In this document: positions 113 to 7,056 of the stretch, one piece after another
Layout of the letters: each line of letters begins with the position of its first letter
Numbering within the stretch: the stretch's first letter is position 1
From: Acutalibacter sp. 1XD8-33
GTDB taxonomy: Bacteria; Bacillota; Clostridia; Oscillospirales; Acutalibacteraceae
DNA length: 64,000 nucleotides
Direction: 5' to 3'
NCBI RefSeq assembly: GCF_003612555.1
Contig: NZ_RAZF01000002.1
Span: forward strand, 1-64,000
The notes under the pieces: generated by a model
What the model saw: the letters and a program-made list of their open reading frames with translations, nothing else
Database searches by the model: none
Told to the model about the DNA's origin: nothing
Program-made: the position numbers and the translations under genes

Positions 113-2977
113 TTATACAAAGAATCCATCAGTATCAAAGAGATGGTTAAGTTCCTCGCTGGTTTGTGCATGAGAAACTTTATCCCTGACAGCACTTTTC
201 GACATGTCCAGTCGCTTGTATTTATAAGTTCCCGATGCCTGTTTCATTTGGCGAATTAGTTGGATTCTGCCAAGTCCAGGATTTTGTCTTGCATATTCTG
301 CAAATCCTTTTGCCTTGCTAAGATTATCATCAAGGTCTGCGCGGTGAGGTTCTAAAATATCAATGACATATTTCGAAACAGGGTCTCTACGCACAATGAT
401 AAAGTCTGGGTATGCAGGCTTCATTTCCCCATCCATTTCGTAAGGGATGCAAAGAGACCATGCACCTCTGGAGGGGTTACGAATAAAACAGACAAAGCCA
501 TCCTGCGCCTGTTCTTCTTCAAGCGTTCCGATTTCCCATGTGTTCAACTTTAATATAGCGATTCCTGTTGCATCGCTGACAAACAAATGATCTCGATACG
601 CTTTTCCGCCTGCTTCGTGTGGAACCTGAATTGTTTCCGGTAAACGGAAATTGTGCTTGCTTACCACATCCCCGTCAGATACAATAGTATCATATTGTCT
701 GCGTATCTTCTCATCAACGCTCGTAGCAATATGACGGCGATAATCATCGTTCAAGCGGTGGAAACGTTGCTGAGCATAGGTGTGCAGTTTATTCATGCTG
801 TCTTCATCGGCGACAAATAGAATGACATCTACCTTGAATCCATTGGGATCATCTTCATCTATATATTTGTTGCCATAAATATTTCCGATACCCTCATTGC
901 CGAGTTTACTTTCCGCAATGCGAAACTGCCTGTCCACATCTGTGTCTGTAGTTGTGAAAAGGTTATGCACATAGTAGTTATCAACAGTTTCCCCGAATGC
1001 ATCAAAAATCTGTGTTGCCAACTTGAACTGCTTGACCTGTAGCACAAGGTCATCGTATTCTCCGCAGGTTTTCAAATCTTCCACATAGTTGTGAATCATA
1101 TCCGCAATCTCGGATTGTACTTCTCTGATTGCCATGCGATGCAAACCAGACATAGTAAGCAAGTGTGCCATTTTAAAGAGAGATGTCAGGTAGTTGTTAA
1201 TTCGCACAACTCTAACATTGTAGGAGAGAAGACCCGCGTCATTGATGAATTTCATAACCTCTTCGCGGTCGAATAAATCAACTGGGGTTTCCTGATCTGC
1301 TTCATCTGCATTCTCGCCTGCAGAAGATTCTGCCACTGGAGCCGATATCCCGTTGTCGGCTGTTGATGTAGCGTCAGTAGCTTGAATATCGGAAGATTCA
1401 ACCATTGAACTAAAACTGGAACTCTCAGCTGTATTCACTGCTGGAGGGCTTATCTCACTAACAGGCTTTGCTGCACCTGTTCCGCCTTGACTTTGGGAAT
1501 CTGTTGTAGTAGCTTCATCTTGTTCTGTTGTGCCACCCGAAATATCGAGTGAAAGCTGTCCAGGCATATTGTTATTTGGCTTTTTTCTACCAGGCCTGAC
1601 CGTCAAGGTATCGTATCGCCTTTGATTGGGAGTTTCCCCATACACATCTGTTGGTATATCGCCACCCTCTGCACTTTGCAAAGCATCTACGACATCCTTA
1701 ACCGTATCCTCATTAAAGTGCGGCAAAAACAGATGAACATCATTCAACACTTCATCTACTGTGATGTGCATCTGCATCGGTGTTCTGACCATTCTGCCGA
1801 GCAGCTGTGCAATGTAGGTGGCATCGCTGGCGTGCTTGAAGGACATCATAGTTTCTGCCCTTGGGCAGTCCCATCCAGTGGAAAGATTCTCCTTGAAAAA
1901 TACTACACGGATATTCCTATCCTCGGAGATATCTGACGGTTCCACATAGCGCACATCCAGTCCGCCCACCGTAATTGTTCCCTTTTCGCCGAAAGTATGC
2001 ACAACTTGTCCAGCGTCAAAGCGGAAACCAGTGCGTTCCTCGATTTTCTGCAAGCAGTCCTGTAAATCCGTATCTGTAAGTTTGCCATTGCTGCCGTTCA
2101 GTACCTGTATAACAAAAACAGGGTTTACATAGGCATAGTGCTGTTCTTGGCAATACTGTGTCCAATGTTGCCATTTTTCCTGCCAATCATCGGCGGCGGC
2201 TTGTAGAATAGCCATATCCTTGTTTACGGTACTTTCTTCCGGGTAGGTAATCACAATGCGGTCTTTCAGCAGGCCTGACGCCCGCACCTCATCTGCTGTG
2301 ACAATAGATTTGTGTATCGTTGAGGAAGTCCCCTCCACCAAGACATTAAAACGCTGGGGGGTGGCAGACATCCCGATTACCAGAGGCATCGGAGGTATCT
2401 TATCTTCCTCACTGCCTTTCAGGAATTTTTGCATGATGGTCGTTGCCTTGCCAGCTTCTCTGCCCTGCATCCCACGATGTGCTTCGTCAATGATAAAATA
2501 GAGACGGTCACTCTTTTCCCTTGCAGTATTAGCGATGGTCTGCCAAATCGTGTATGTGCGTCCATCTCCATTTTTTGTGAGTTTGGATGTCTTTGACAAT
2601 TTCTGCGTGTTCAAGAAGTAAATATGGCCGTCCTCGAACAACTCCATATCAAAGGAATCCTCACTGACCGTCACACACCGCCCAAGGCGGATTCTATCTG
2701 CCTTGGCATCGATTTTCAGTTTGGACTGCTCATTCAGTTGCGGCGAGTCCGACAGCCAAATCACAATGGCGTTCTGCTGTTCCATATAGGATTCATCCCC
2801 AAAGAAAATACTTTCAATCAAGGATGCCATGATAATTGTTTTGCCCGCACCCGTGGGTGCAGTAAAGGAAACCACCTGCGGAGCGTGTGTCCTATGGTAG
2901 CTGCCGAGGGCTTCTGCTGTTTTCAAGCGGATGTCCACAAGCGCCCGTTTTTGAAATGGAAATAATTCTACTTTCAT
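113..2977 (-). CDS. Type III restriction-like Res subunit (DEAH helicase/nuclease)
   Basis: This 954-residue protein should translocate on DNA using ATP and cut it together with the Mod protein encoded just upstream. Seen: a Walker A PTGAGKT at residues 41-47, a helicase motif II DEAH in FIIDEAHRG near residue 160, and SATPQRF near residue 205. A Ser/Thr/Ala-rich low-complexity linker lies at about residues 490-590 and joins the helicase to the C-terminal part. Near the C-terminus PDFII followed by VIDILEPH resembles a PD-(D/E)XK nuclease core, but the expected lysine is not obvious. The ATG has a good GGGAG ribosome site 6 nt upstream. It is the last gene of a four-gene operon, 2 nt after mod. 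The Res assignment is firm; active cleavage is inferred. Confidence 0.88.
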   Translation of the reverse strand: MKVELFPFQKRALVDIRLKTAEALGSYHRTHAPQVVSFTAPTGAGKTIIMASLIESIFFGDESYMEQQNAIVIWLSDSPQLNEQSKLKIDAKADRIRLGRCVTVSEDSFDMELFEDGHIYFLNTQKLSKTSKLTKNGDGRTYTIWQTIANTAREKSDRLYFIIDEAHRGMQGREAGKATTIMQKFLKGSEEDKIPPMPLVIGMSATPQRFNVLVEGTSSTIHKSIVTADEVRASGLLKDRIVITYPEESTVNKDMAILQAAADDWQEKWQHWTQYCQEQHYAYVNPVFVIQVLNGSNGKLTDTDLQDCLQKIEERTGFRFDAGQVVHTFGEKGTITVGGLDVRYVEPSDISEDRNIRVVFFKENLSTGWDCPRAETMMSFKHASDATYIAQLLGRMVRTPMQMHITVDEVLNDVHLFLPHFNEDTVKDVVDALQSAEGGDIPTDVYGETPNQRRYDTLTVRPGRKKPNNNMPGQLSLDISGGTTEQDEATTTDSQSQGGTGAAKPVSEISPPAVNTAESSSFSSMVESSDIQATDATSTADNGISAPVAESSAGENADEADQETPVDLFDREEVMKFINDAGLLSYNVRVVRINNYLTSLFKMAHLLTMSGLHRMAIREVQSEIADMIHNYVEDLKTCGEYDDLVLQVKQFKLATQIFDAFGETVDNYYVHNLFTTTDTDVDRQFRIAESKLGNEGIGNIYGNKYIDEDDPNGFKVDVILFVADEDSMNKLHTYAQQRFHRLNDDYRRHIATSVDEKIRRQYDTIVSDGDVVSKHNFRLPETIQVPHEAGGKAYRDHLFVSDATGIAILKLNTWEIGTLEEEQAQDGFVCFIRNPSRGAWSLCIPYEMDGEMKPAYPDFIIVRRDPVSKYVIDILEPHRADLDDNLSKAKGFAEYARQNPGLGRIQLIRQMKQASGTYKYKRLDMSKSAVRDKVSHAQTSEELNHLFDTDGFFV

Positions 2978-2979
2978 GT

Positions 2980-5103
2980 TTATCTCCCCGTGTTAATGCG
3001 GAAATTGTCCAAATAATCCCTGTAAAGCTGGTAGCAGTCCTTACCGTCATAGTTGCGGATCATCTCACGGTAGGCCGTCTCTGAATCCGTCACAATGAAT
3101 ATCGTTTGAATCTCCGAGTATTTGCGAATCTCATTATCAAACTCGGAATAGAAAGTTTCATCAATCAGAACCGCCATCTTGTTTTCTGGTAGGAGCAACA
3201 TAGGCGGCAGTTCCTCTGTATTCAAAACCGGACATTTCCCAATTGCTCTACCCTTCATCCAGAGAACAGGCAGCAACTCCGCAAACTGTTTTCCAAGCGC
3301 AACAGATGTCTTGTCAAGAAAACTAAGTTTGAAAAAAGCGGCGTTAGCCTTGAATCCATCTGACATAGGAATATCGCTACCAAAGTAGTTTCCACTGAGA
3401 GGATTGCCGTTTATATCATGCCCCTCAATACTGCATACTGTGCGCGGCCAGTTTACATATCTGGCAATACCGAGTTTTTCCCATTCTTCGTCCCCAGGTT
3501 GGTAGCCTTGTGCGGTTAGAGCCGTTGCTTCATCTGCCGAGACCTCATTATTTGTGACCATGATACAACGGCGATGTCCACCGTCTTCGGCGTTAAGAAG
3601 ATTGACAGCATGAAGGGTAGTGCCAGAACCAGAAAAGAAGTCAAGGATAAGAGCATGGGTTTTACTTTTCAATGAGAAATTTATACAATCATGTACGGCA
3701 TAAAGTGACTTTGGAAAAGTGAATTTTTGACCACCAATAATATTCCGTAGCATCGTAGAGCCATAAACACTTGCATCATGTCTATCCCGCACCCATATTG
3801 TCCGAGGATTTTGAACTGAGTCAAAATCCCCAGTTTTTTGCGCTACTACATAAGCGCCAGAATCATCTGTTCCGAGAATTTCTAAGAGGCCATTTTCAAT
3901 TTGTTCCATCTGTTTGTCTTTCAACATGACAATACTGCATTGCTGAGTAGTCGCATTAAACTGACCAGCCTTAACGCGATGTTCCGCCATTCGTTTCCTT
4001 AGTGTATCTTGTCCTACTTGCCACCGCCCCTCAACATTGTTTTTTCTTAATGGCCAGCAGATAACAGCACTGCTGGGAAGCGTTGACGGCCAAGGAATGT
4101 TGTTGCGGTTTTCTTCCAAAGCAAGTGAATCTCCAACATACAAAATCTTATGAGTTTCCTTATCCACATAAATAGGATAAAACAGATTTGGCCTGTCAGA
4201 ACGGAGAGCTGCAGTTCCTCGGCGGAGTAAGCTATTCCATATTGTTATAGTCTGTTCTGATTCATCATCCTCATCATTGGACAATAACATATTGTCATTA
4301 ACCTGTTCAATTGTGTGATTTCCCATGAAAACATAAAAGAAGTATTCACCTGCCCTGGAAAACTGCCCCGGTCTTGTGGACCCTTTTTTATTGGTCATTG
4401 CAGAAATCATCTGAATCTTTGCCTCTTTGAATATCTCCTCAAGCAGACAACCCAAGTGCAGGTATTCTTTTTCATCTATGGTGGCGATTAACACCGAATC
4501 TGTAGGATTAAGCAATTTTTTCGCCAATCGTAACCGTTTCTCCATCATGGACAGCCATTTACTGTGTCGGTACTGATCGTTTCCGTCTACATAATCATTA
4601 TTGTATTTCCAGTCCTTCGCCCCCGTGTTGTAGGGCGGGTCAATATAGATGCAATCCACTTTCCCGGCGTAGAGATATTCCAGTAACTGAAGGGCGTGGT
4701 AATTGTCGGCTTCAATCAGCGTATGCCAAAGGTCACTGTCTGGTGCATTCTCGACCGCATCAATCGGCGTAAGTGTCGGGTAAATTGGCTCACCAAATTC
4801 CGCAACAACTACAATCTCATCGAGCCTGAAGGTTTTTTGCTCATGCGTTTCTCTGCGATCACAGATTGTATTGTCACCATCAATGCGCAGAACCGTGTAG
4901 ATGTCACTGACGTACCCGGTTTTTAGAGCAACCTTGGAGCCAACTCGAATCGGCATACTATAAAGCGGTGTACATTCCGGCAGATGTTCCTCAAACACAA
5001 GGCCGAACTTTTTCTGCTCGATTAGTTTATCAGTTTCTTGCAGAATCCGCTCCCGGAGTATCGGGTCATCTATCTGCTGGATCAAATCCTGTAAGAGTGC
5101 CAT
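2980..5103 (-). CDS. Type III-like DNA adenine methyltransferase (Mod)
   Basis: This protein should transfer a methyl group from AdoMet to adenine and supply target recognition for the Res protein. The catalytic motif DPPYNTG lies near residue 155 and the AdoMet-binding DFFSGSGTT near residue 488. That order, catalysis before AdoMet, is typical of beta-class N6-adenine methyltransferases, including type III Mod. The about 300 residues between the motifs are the expected place for the target recognition domain. An N-terminal extension of about 130 residues precedes the methylase fold. I chose the ATG at 5103 because a GAGG site lies 8 nt upstream; a GTG at 5112 is possible. It sits 10 nt after the three-cysteine gene and directly before res. 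Confidence 0.9.
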   Translation of the reverse strand: MALLQDLIQQIDDPILRERILQETDKLIEQKKFGLVFEEHLPECTPLYSMPIRVGSKVALKTGYVSDIYTVLRIDGDNTICDRRETHEQKTFRLDEIVVVAEFGEPIYPTLTPIDAVENAPDSDLWHTLIEADNYHALQLLEYLYAGKVDCIYIDPPYNTGAKDWKYNNDYVDGNDQYRHSKWLSMMEKRLRLAKKLLNPTDSVLIATIDEKEYLHLGCLLEEIFKEAKIQMISAMTNKKGSTRPGQFSRAGEYFFYVFMGNHTIEQVNDNMLLSNDEDDESEQTITIWNSLLRRGTAALRSDRPNLFYPIYVDKETHKILYVGDSLALEENRNNIPWPSTLPSSAVICWPLRKNNVEGRWQVGQDTLRKRMAEHRVKAGQFNATTQQCSIVMLKDKQMEQIENGLLEILGTDDSGAYVVAQKTGDFDSVQNPRTIWVRDRHDASVYGSTMLRNIIGGQKFTFPKSLYAVHDCINFSLKSKTHALILDFFSGSGTTLHAVNLLNAEDGGHRRCIMVTNNEVSADEATALTAQGYQPGDEEWEKLGIARYVNWPRTVCSIEGHDINGNPLSGNYFGSDIPMSDGFKANAAFFKLSFLDKTSVALGKQFAELLPVLWMKGRAIGKCPVLNTEELPPMLLLPENKMAVLIDETFYSEFDNEIRKYSEIQTIFIVTDSETAYREMIRNYDGKDCYQLYRDYLDNFRINTGR

Positions 5104-5113
5104 AGCTTGCACC

Positions 5114-5890
5114 TCATCCTTCAGTAATCGTCTTTTCCTTTATGTGATACTGAATGCCATGTTCCTCACAGAAGAAAATGACCTTCGCTGCACATTTGTT
5201 ATAAAAATCCTTGTGTTCCTCATAGGAACTTGCGGTCTTATTGTAATTTGTTCTTCCAAAAATAATTCGGTCAACGAAACTAACGGCCTCCAGCAACTCT
5301 TGTAAATCTTGCTCTGCCATATTTGGAGTTGGATATGGTTCCATGCTTATCCATGTCTTGCATCCGGCATTATGTAGTGCTTTCAATGCTTCCAGCCGGT
5401 CTTTATAGGGTGCTGCCCCCGGTTCCATCTTCTTTCTATACTCTTCATCCAATGAGATGAGTGTTATGCCGTACTCATTTTCATCTGAAAGTTCAGCCAG
5501 CGATATGGGAAGAATTCCTTTTGTCAGCACTGTGCATTTGATTCCGGCAGCATTCAACTTTTTGATTGATGCGATTGCCATGTCTGCGATCTCCTGATAT
5601 CCATACATGAACGGGTCAGTAGTAAAACACAGCTGCACGGACACAATCTTTCCCTTTAATCTCGGAATTTCTTTATCAAGGAGTTCAAGCGTGTTCAATA
5701 CGAGCCTTGGACTGCGCCAGTCTTCATAGTCTTTTATTTGCCCGAAACGCTTTTTTTGTAAAAAGGCGTAGCAAGGGAACAGGCAGCCATGAGAACAGCC
5801 CAGCACAAAATTCATTGTATAATCGCCATACTCCACGCCCGTTTTGTAAAGCATAGTTTTTCTTTGTACATAGCCAGTCACTTTACTCAT
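5114..5890 (-). CDS. Radical-SAM-like three-cysteine protein
   Basis: This 258-residue protein resembles the spore-photoproduct-lyase-like branch of radical SAM enzymes. The cysteine motif near residue 32 reads CSHGCLFPC, which is CX3CX3C rather than the canonical CX3CX2C. The following TDPFMYGYQ, TVLTKG and WISMEPYPTPN segments fit the TIM-barrel strands of such proteins. Its ATG overlaps the stop of the upstream partner gene as ATGA, so the two are probably translationally coupled. The pairing matches the family pair known as three-Cys-motif protein plus TcmP. Its substrate is unknown. The spacing change may still allow an iron-sulfur cluster, but that is inference. Confidence 0.78.
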   Translation of the reverse strand: MSKVTGYVQRKTMLYKTGVEYGDYTMNFVLGCSHGCLFPCYAFLQKKRFGQIKDYEDWRSPRLVLNTLELLDKEIPRLKGKIVSVQLCFTTDPFMYGYQEIADMAIASIKKLNAAGIKCTVLTKGILPISLAELSDENEYGITLISLDEEYRKKMEPGAAPYKDRLEALKALHNAGCKTWISMEPYPTPNMAEQDLQELLEAVSFVDRIIFGRTNYNKTASSYEEHKDFYNKCAAKVIFFCEEHGIQYHIKEKTITEG

Positions 5891-7056
5891 AGTGCGGGCG
5901 TTCCTTTCTGAAACGAAACAACAGTGTGCCTTTTTCCATCCTTGGAATCAACGGCAGTGCTGAATATCGCTCCATATGTGTTTTTCAGTTCATTCCGTAT
6001 TTCCTGTCTAAATCCGTCAGACGGAAAAATCGGATGATAATCCAAAAGCTGCCATAATGACTCAAGTGGCACATTTTTCTGGCCAGAAAATGATTTTTGC
6101 AAATATTTTGCAATGTCTGTCACAAAAAAGCAGGACTCGTCCGTTGCAGGCACAAGAAAACCCTCATTGCCAAAATCAAACGATAACTGGTACTGACCAC
6201 CGTGCGTGTCTTTAGTTGAGGACTTTCCTCCGAAAGTTTTCCATGCCACCTGTTTATATAGCTTGAAGCCTTCGATATGGCTGGTACAATGAATCAAACT
6301 GTACAACTGTGAATTTTGCGTATTGAAAAATGGAAATGCACCCACAAAATATCTGCGTTGACCTTTTAGCTCTTGTATGATTTCTTCCACCCGTTCTTCA
6401 TATGCCTCTTTGTCGCTGCCAAATGGAATTAGTTTCTCAAAGTCAGTGAGATAGGTGTTTTCATATTTTTCCTTCGCAGCTTCCCGCCTTACCTGCGAAA
6501 TTGCTCGTACTGTATCCGAGACCATGTGGTTAATCATGACCTCGCCCCAATTTCTTAAAAACGGGATAAGCACAGGCCAGTTGATAGATGCATCATACGG
6601 ATCGTAAAACAGAAAATAGTGCAGATGCTGACGACCATACAACTGAGGACCTATCGTCTCTAATAGTTCATCCCGATCTTTGGCAGTTGCGATGATTCTA
6701 AAATTCCCTTCGTCAGCGGGAAGATGTTTTTTAAGTTCGTCCACTTTCTCTTGAGAATTATCATTCAAATATATCTGGATCTGTTTCTGCGGATAGGTGC
6801 GGGCAACATCAAGAAGCGCCTTAGCAACCCGAACAGGCGTCCCTTCGACAACTTCCCCATTATGTGTATAAACGCCGCTATTACACATACAGTCGATAAA
6901 CACCAATCCATAGCAGGAACTATTTAGCATCAGCTTTTGCGCCCAAGCTTTTATGTACTCCTCTACCAGTTTGAATTTCATGATGGTGTGAGGACTTGCC
7001 TTACTTATTATTTTACTATTGTTACTGCTTGACATAAACTCCCTCACATTCTTCAT
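5887..7056 (-). CDS. tcmP: Three-Cys-motif partner protein (TcmP-like)
   Basis: This 389-residue protein matches the TcmP family, whose members sit next to three-cysteine radical-SAM-like proteins. Recognisable is the N-terminal block SPHTIMKFKLVEEYIKAW, followed by FIDCMCNSGVY, which looks like the first strand and glycine loop of a Rossmann-type methyltransferase fold. The catalytic role of the family is not established to my knowledge. It is the first gene of the operon that continues into the three-cysteine protein, mod and res. The start is uncertain: an ATG at 7035 has a GAGGGAG sequence immediately upstream, while the ATG at 7056 has no clear ribosome site. Confidence 0.8.
   Translation of the reverse strand: MKNVREFMSSSNNSKIISKASPHTIMKFKLVEEYIKAWAQKLMLNSSCYGLVFIDCMCNSGVYTHNGEVVEGTPVRVAKALLDVARTYPQKQIQIYLNDNSQEKVDELKKHLPADEGNFRIIATAKDRDELLETIGPQLYGRQHLHYFLFYDPYDASINWPVLIPFLRNWGEVMINHMVSDTVRAISQVRREAAKEKYENTYLTDFEKLIPFGSDKEAYEERVEEIIQELKGQRRYFVGAFPFFNTQNSQLYSLIHCTSHIEGFKLYKQVAWKTFGGKSSTKDTHGGQYQLSFDFGNEGFLVPATDESCFFVTDIAKYLQKSFSGQKNVPLESLWQLLDYHPIFPSDGFRQEIRNELKNTYGAIFSTAVDSKDGKRHTVVSFQKGTPAL

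Follow-up and report, generated by a model that had tools for sequence, protein, structure and literature searches.

Candidate defence systems that combine a TcmP-family protein with an adjoining three-cysteine partner are listed in PADLOC as PDC-M30 and PDC-M41, in which, reading from the model names, TcmP and DUF5131 components form one candidate system. PMC10855318 derives such PADLOC candidates (PDC) from 'guilt-by-embedding', describes them as lacking experimental validation, and gives PDC-M30 as predicted in 32 Pseudomonas aeruginosa strains of a 100-strain panel. Here we describe an operon in which a TcmP-family protein and a radical S-adenosylmethionine (SAM) enzyme, abbreviated rSAM, are encoded ahead of type III-like restriction-modification (R-M) genes. 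It occupies the first 7 kb of a 64,000-nucleotide stretch (the window) of the gut bacterium Acutalibacter sp. 1XD8-33 (NZ_RAZF01000002.1, positions 1 to 64,000). The explanation that we favour, and whose truth we hold to be evenly balanced, combines type III-like R-M genes with an accessory pair, embedded in their operon, that would act on nucleic acid independently of the site recognized by Mod, as a second layer. The four open reading frames (ORFs) are intact and lie on the minus strand, with the transcription order TcmP, rSAM, Mod and Res. Their features in the window are listed in that order.

5887..7056, minus strand: tcmP (TcmP1 type), 389 aa (TIGR04474 1.4e-30; AlphaFold2 model)
6874..6897, minus strand: TcmP motif I, IDCMCNSG compared with IDAFAGTG of TcmP2, the first Gly of GxG gone (alignments A2, A3, A6)
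5114..5890, minus strand: radical SAM enzyme resembling spore photoproduct lyase, 258 aa (PF04055 2e-14; model; Foldseek)
5771..5797, minus strand: three-cysteine cluster motif C32-x3-C36-x3-C40, then Y41 (alignments A1, A7)
2980..5112, minus strand: Mod, type III-like DNA methyltransferase, 710 aa from GTG (PF01555 2.3e-21; PADLOC MTase_III PDLC03645 2e-149 over 1-708/709)
4630..4641, minus strand: Mod DPPY motif, invariant in 12/12 Mods of alignment A5
3763..4395, minus strand, limits approximate: Mod variable region, presumed target recognition domain (variable A5 block between DPPY and FxGxG)
3622..3642, minus strand: Mod FxGxG motif, DFFSGSG (A5)
113..2977, minus strand: Res, helicase/nuclease subunit, 954 aa (PF04851 1.1e-14; TAPTGAGKT and DEAH)
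344..409, minus strand: Res C-terminal PD...DILEPH (PDF...DILEPH), with E-x-H where PD-(D/E)xK nucleases have E-x-K, invariant in 10/10 rSAM-linked Res (alignment A4)

The ORF coordinates confirm the tight packing on one strand that an earlier note on this DNA had claimed. A 4 nt overlap joins TcmP and rSAM, 2 nt separate Mod from Res, and the spacing between rSAM and Mod is 1 nt from the GTG start or 10 nt from an ATG at 5103, which is the likely start of Mod because it corresponds to the first codon in most aligned relatives. Such spacing suggests that the four genes are cotranscribed; a promoter scan stayed at chance level (17 found, 14.2 expected).

In common with PDC-M30 and PDC-M41, the operon has a TcmP-family protein with an adjoining three-cysteine partner. 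It differs in that the partner is a PF04055 protein with a CX3CX3C motif and no DUF5131, and in that the pair sits inside a type III-like operon. The TcmP of the window matches the PDC models moderately (M30A 1.2e-17, M41A 1.4e-9) and rSAM falls short of DUF5131 (M41B E = 0.018; PF07505 14 bits against a cut-off of 28.9). For comparison, the DUF5131-like protein of locus L081 matches M41B at 1e-117, and a second TcmP (TcmP2) from locus L008 matches PDC-M41A at 7e-89. The partner models of PADLOC-DB 2.0.0 thus miss both CX3CX3C enzymes tested, the one in the window and that of L008 (E = 0.001). A search of open-licence papers returned no description of a type III and TcmP combination and no experimental test of TcmP with DUF5131. 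The earlier note, which knew of no described system with this composition, is therefore right about the type III combination in that literature, but PADLOC already lists TcmP with DUF5131 as a candidate pair.

The R-M half resembles type III systems in the adjacent, same-strand order of mod and res, in the Mod motif order of DPPY, recognition region and FxGxG, and in the helicase motifs of Res, whose Walker A (TAPTGAGKT) and DEAH sequences are invariant in 10/10 Res proteins of A4. By analogy, this part of the operon probably works as known type III systems do. It departs from them in having two or three extra genes ahead of mod and in Res itself, which carries the PD...ExH motif, matches PADLOC REase_III poorly (1e-7, partial) and gives no match to the nuclease model PF19778 at E ≤ 1. 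The ILEPH stretch is also present in five of seven further Res loci, all five without the pair (L144, L145, L147, L148, L149).

A four-gene unit that recurs and co-diverges

A genome_contigs scan with the TcmP of the window found 16 relatives (L002-L017), mostly from Lachnospiraceae and other Clostridia (Blautia, Faecalicatena, Muricomes, Eisenbergiella, 'Lactobacillus rogosae', Lachnospiraceae, Clostridia). rSAM is next to TcmP, or to TcmP2, in all 15 testable relatives, the contig of L015 ending 188 nt past TcmP. Mod follows in 12 of the 14 testable relatives, L005 and L015 being cut by contig ends and L011 (Saccharofermentans) and L014 (a Chloroflexi metagenome-assembled genome) being without Mod, and Res is present in 10/10 relatives that have Mod and enough contig. 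Gene order, strand and tight gaps are held over about 30% protein divergence and several genera. The earlier note had allowed that the link would be chance if TcmP and the three-cysteine gene neighboured Mod and Res only here; the four-gene unit recurs and co-diverges elsewhere, and this recurrence rules out chance adjacency of the four genes.

The proteins have also diverged together. Pairwise identities of rSAM and Res are correlated over 11 loci (r = 0.905, with 0/10,000 permutations as high), and a Res tree places 12 of 13 rSAM-linked Res proteins in a single group (support 87), the exception being L117, which sits apart on a long branch. All four genes are under purifying selection, with ratios of nonsynonymous to synonymous substitution rates (dN/dS) of 0.06-0.13 against both L003 and L004, except for Mod against L004 (0.22). 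Replacement of the block that separates DPPY from FxGxG also leaves the Mod proteins of the window and L004 only 73% identical, compared with 91-92% for rSAM and Res; the window differs from L004 in this variable block, which some other loci have in common. In L094 (11509-13623) Mod is broken into three ORFs, and TcmP, rSAM and Res are open.

Viral collections contain the unit as well. After omitting 9 of 37 IMG/VR loci on contigs already included, we found Mod behind rSAM in 7 of the remaining 28, and the rSAM proteins of L096 and L097 are identical to those of L008 and L016. MT836112.1, a contig of faecal origin deposited as phage without annotation, has a helix-turn-helix-like gene and a TcmP from a different class, followed by rSAM, Mod and Res and then by a gene that combines Swt1-type HEPN with SNF2 domains.

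The operon is probably in a mobile element, since the transposon protein TnpV is encoded upstream of it in the window (Pfam scan) and a recombinase-like ORF, named by eye, follows beyond Res in L002. This locus is 99% identical and gives the only view downstream of Res, as base 1 of the window is the contig edge. The pair could be ordinary cargo of mobile DNA, inserted into R-M operons with no functional link to them. Such hitchhiking would suit the adjoining mobile-element DNA, the occurrence of the pair without Mod and Res in L011 and L014, and three loci with no R-M gene seen nearby (L064, L068, L087). We consider it improbable, given the conserved order, strand and gaps described above and an association with R-M that is recurrent in the rSAM tree and in methyltransferase proximity (see below).

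Genes around the unit vary among many loci; L008, L009 and L010 have a common upstream gene, and L002 and L003 have the TnpV of the window. Where checked, the genes after Res are defence-like, as in MT836112.1 and the following list, in keeping with an operon that adds further defence layers to R-M.

L008 16852-18597: AIPR gene after Res
L117 13878-15410 and L164 10106-12895: gene after Res with Swt1-type HEPN and SNF2 domains

Two kinds of upstream gene were also seen. One is small and conserved (SYKKLWK-L/I-LID), looks XRE-like by eye, and precedes TcmP in L095 (7758-7988), L101 (7781-8011) and L058 (12129-12389) and the R-M genes in L057 (13085-13300); it is absent among the ORFs listed upstream of TcmP in the window. 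A divergent gene of about 645 aa lies upstream of several operons (L008 6712-8643, L095 5702-7630, L106 5664-7640), with a weak match to an IrrE-like peptidase (PF06114) in two of them and no Pfam match in the third.

Modular association of the pair with R-M genes

The pair and the R-M genes are inherited as a unit yet built from modules. Among genomes of the family, searched with thresholds of E ≤ 1e-30 for rSAM and E ≤ 1e-60 for Res, eight others carry this Res. With G279 set aside, six of the seven loci have DNA free of TcmP and rSAM upstream of Mod (L144, L145, L147, L148, L149 and L150, the last with a broken Res), and L146 has just 244 nt of contig ahead of Mod. These Res loci, together with the pair without Mod and Res in L011 and L014, led us to reject the idea that the families always occur together.

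Pairs of the CX3CX3C type also stand beside other R-M types. Type I genes adjoin them in L065 (HsdM/HsdS/HsdR), L060 (HsdM and HsdR), L056 and L121 (HsdM), two C5-methylase genes in L061, and GmrSD in L101 and, by resemblance, L104. A set of ResIII helicase, N6_N4 methylase and SNF2 helicase lies beside the pair in L057 (5712-13075), where all three were matched, and a similar set in L066 (10482-17999), where the SNF2 gene and methylase were matched and the third is assigned by resemblance. An rSAM tree of 52 rows, from which we excluded L115 and L129 as near-identical and any locus in which no CX3CX3C rSAM was visible, needs 6 changes of type III linkage, or 5 without contig-cut rows, and well-supported branches force at least 3 of them. 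Loci with type I, GmrSD or SNF2-set partners are interleaved in this tree, and the C5-methylase-linked L061 falls outside with loci lacking an R-M neighbour. The pair persists through exchanges of the Mod recognition region and of the R-M partner type, and for this reason most probably acts regardless of Mod's site.

In the phylum-wide sample, 32 other TIGR04474 loci comprise 9 with a CX3CX3C partner, 14 with a DUF5131-like partner, 2 with another three-cysteine protein and 7 with none visible (1 at a contig edge, 4 fragments and 2 of about 400 aa). The third kind of neighbour carries CPYDCAYCY and adjoins TcmP or lies one ORF off (L077 8100-9044, L092 8165-9400); the L077 protein had no match in PADLOC. 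Genomes with a DNA methyltransferase (PF02384, PF01555 or PF00145) no more than 5 kb away make up 9/15 of the CX3CX3C type and 1/14 of the DUF5131 type (p = 0.004), with distances taken from rSAM for the family sample and from the TcmP match elsewhere. G055 was omitted from this count for its short contig and short-contig genomes of the DUF5131 type were kept, whereas a count requiring flanks of at least 5 kb on both sides treats both alike (6/11 versus 0/7, p = 0.025). Excluding G056, which has weak matches, gives p = 0.006. All 6 usable family-sample genomes fall among the 9 with a nearby methyltransferase.

On plasmids, the TcmP of the window found no match and TcmP2 found 14 records. TcmP with a CX3CX2C radical SAM gene lies beside BREX genes in a Nostoc plasmid and occurs in two haloarchaeal plasmids with no R-M genes listed nearby; in a Leisingera plasmid, TcmP-Gp37/Gp68 adjoins Abi genes. 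For Sinorhizobium meliloti, a table in PMC12445080 lists a TcmP gene directly after Hna.

Predicted folds of TcmP and the radical SAM enzyme

TcmP passes the curated TIGR04474 cut-off (107.1 bits versus 53), and its AlphaFold2 model (predicted local distance difference test, pLDDT, 85.8; predicted template-modelling score, pTM, 0.85) resembles class I methyltransferases in the PDB, including Trm1, RlmJ, TYW4, MnmM and CmoA, with many of the early matches being RNA-modifying enzymes. By this model the protein has a class I methyltransferase-like fold followed by a C-terminal region of three helices and two strands (HHH-EE), which we read as winged-helix-like. Against a viral fold library, many named matches are methyltransferases and none is named TcmP, among the matches listed; sequence searches of the PDB with alignments A1, A2, A3 and A7 gave only weak matches that we judged unrelated. 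A TcmP2 gene lies between TcmP1 and rSAM in 11/15 relatives (L006-L014, L016, L017) and keeps motif I intact in 10/10 aligned; no TcmP2 lies there in the window, L002, L003, L004 and L005.

rSAM clears the PF04055 cut-off (54.5 versus 29.5) and its model is confident (pLDDT 93, pTM 0.90). Its cluster motif is CX3CX3C instead of the canonical radical SAM CX3CX2C, with C32, C36 and C40 invariant in all 11 rows of A1 (window included) and CX3CX3C present in all 23 non-DUF5131 rows of A7. The protein is weakly similar to Radical SAM mobile pair proteins A and B (TIGR04470 and TIGR04471, 33.7 and 20.2 bits) but scores far under their cut-offs of 410 and 355, and in that mobile pair the partner is another radical SAM protein.

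The fold matches include TYW1, and tRNA wybutosine is made by a methyltransferase and then the radical SAM enzyme TYW1. The combination of a methyltransferase fold with a radical SAM enzyme, TYW1 and TYW4 among the matches, and methyltransferase genes close to the pair could point to hypermodification, in which TcmP and rSAM would give bases of host DNA a second modification, or build one up further, as an extra self mark for R-M. This is unlikely in our view, if the foremost of the alternatives: the pair is unchanged across swaps of Mod recognition region and R-M type, Mod and Res lineages persist without it, and the SAM motif of TcmP1 is degenerate. The suggestion of the earlier note that type III R-M gains a DNA modification from the pair found no support and is at most possible, as the constancy of TcmP and rSAM through these changes argues against the pair working through Mod's site.

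Foldseek ranks 1-4 for the rSAM model are spore photoproduct lyases (TM 0.63-0.68), and a profile alignment with ten lyases (probability 81-85%) shows a common C-x3-C...CY cluster region and T(S/T)DP motif. Unlike these lyases, rSAM has the CX3CX3C spacing and is without the N-terminal lyase region, and the SPL family model PF20903 is absent among its Pfam matches at E ≤ 1. The H-donor cysteine of the lyase is C141 in Bacillus subtilis, according to PMC3742179. In the profile alignment this cysteine pairs with F89 of rSAM, so that C88, one residue off, was dropped as its exact counterpart; the cysteine is also missing in 4 of the 5 lyases displayed out of the 10 aligned.

The likeness to these lyases raises the prospect of de-modification or repair, in which lyase-like C-C bond breakage on a base, with TcmP guiding the enzyme to DNA, would remove phage modifications that block restriction or reverse damage. 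Several R-M types as neighbours would fit such a general problem, blocked sites for example. Set against the top fold match and the shared motifs are the misaligned H-donor cysteine and the occurrence of the pair beside GmrSD, a family that attacks modified DNA, according to PMC12409352. We rank this prospect last among the alternatives, as improbable. A narrower version, in which the radical enzyme found in various types of R-M operon strips or breaks groups on phage bases (C5 substituents, by lyase-like chemistry) with a methyltransferase-derived DNA-binding guide, seems very unlikely; if true, camouflaged phage DNA would be made cuttable and restriction would have an anti-camouflage arm.

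A proposed accessory pair within a restriction operon

We favour a site-independent accessory pair over hypermodification, hitchhiking and de-modification or repair, in that order of probability. In the favoured explanation, Mod would set specificity and provide the self mark, and Res would translocate and cut. The first genes of the operon would encode TcmP-rSAM as a semi-independent accessory pair, in which TcmP, by its methyltransferase fold and winged-helix-like tail, would most likely bind nucleic acid and present it to the radical enzyme. rSAM, related to spore photoproduct lyase, would then alter or break a base or nucleotide, and the pair, produced alongside the restriction proteins, would form a second layer against phages.

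Several observations weigh against this explanation. Co-divergence is expected from physical linkage alone. Of 398 family genomes, 8 have rSAM and 9 have this Res, with both only in the genome of the window, and the linkage is thus a property of some lineages rather than of the families; deeper CX3CX3C lineages are without an R-M neighbour. The PDB matches of TcmP are at fold level only (TM about 0.2-0.5), motif I of TcmP1 is without its first glycine, and the intact paralogue TcmP2 was sought across the genome of the window and not found. Methyltransferase proximity becomes less marked at 10 kb (pooled, 9/15 versus 2/14, p = 0.014), and restricting the count to the phylum-wide sample gives 3/9 versus 1/14 (p = 0.15). 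The proposal in the earlier note of a tie to defence is therefore partly borne out: a DNA methyltransferase or other defence genes often lie close to CX3CX3C-type pairs, clearly so in the family sample, but not significantly in the phylum-wide sample by itself.

A pair for which we found no known reaction is here bound, in fixed order and with co-divergence, to an R-M system with a measurable phenotype, which offers an experimental handle on it. If the pair acts on DNA, the operon would represent radical chemistry built into restriction.

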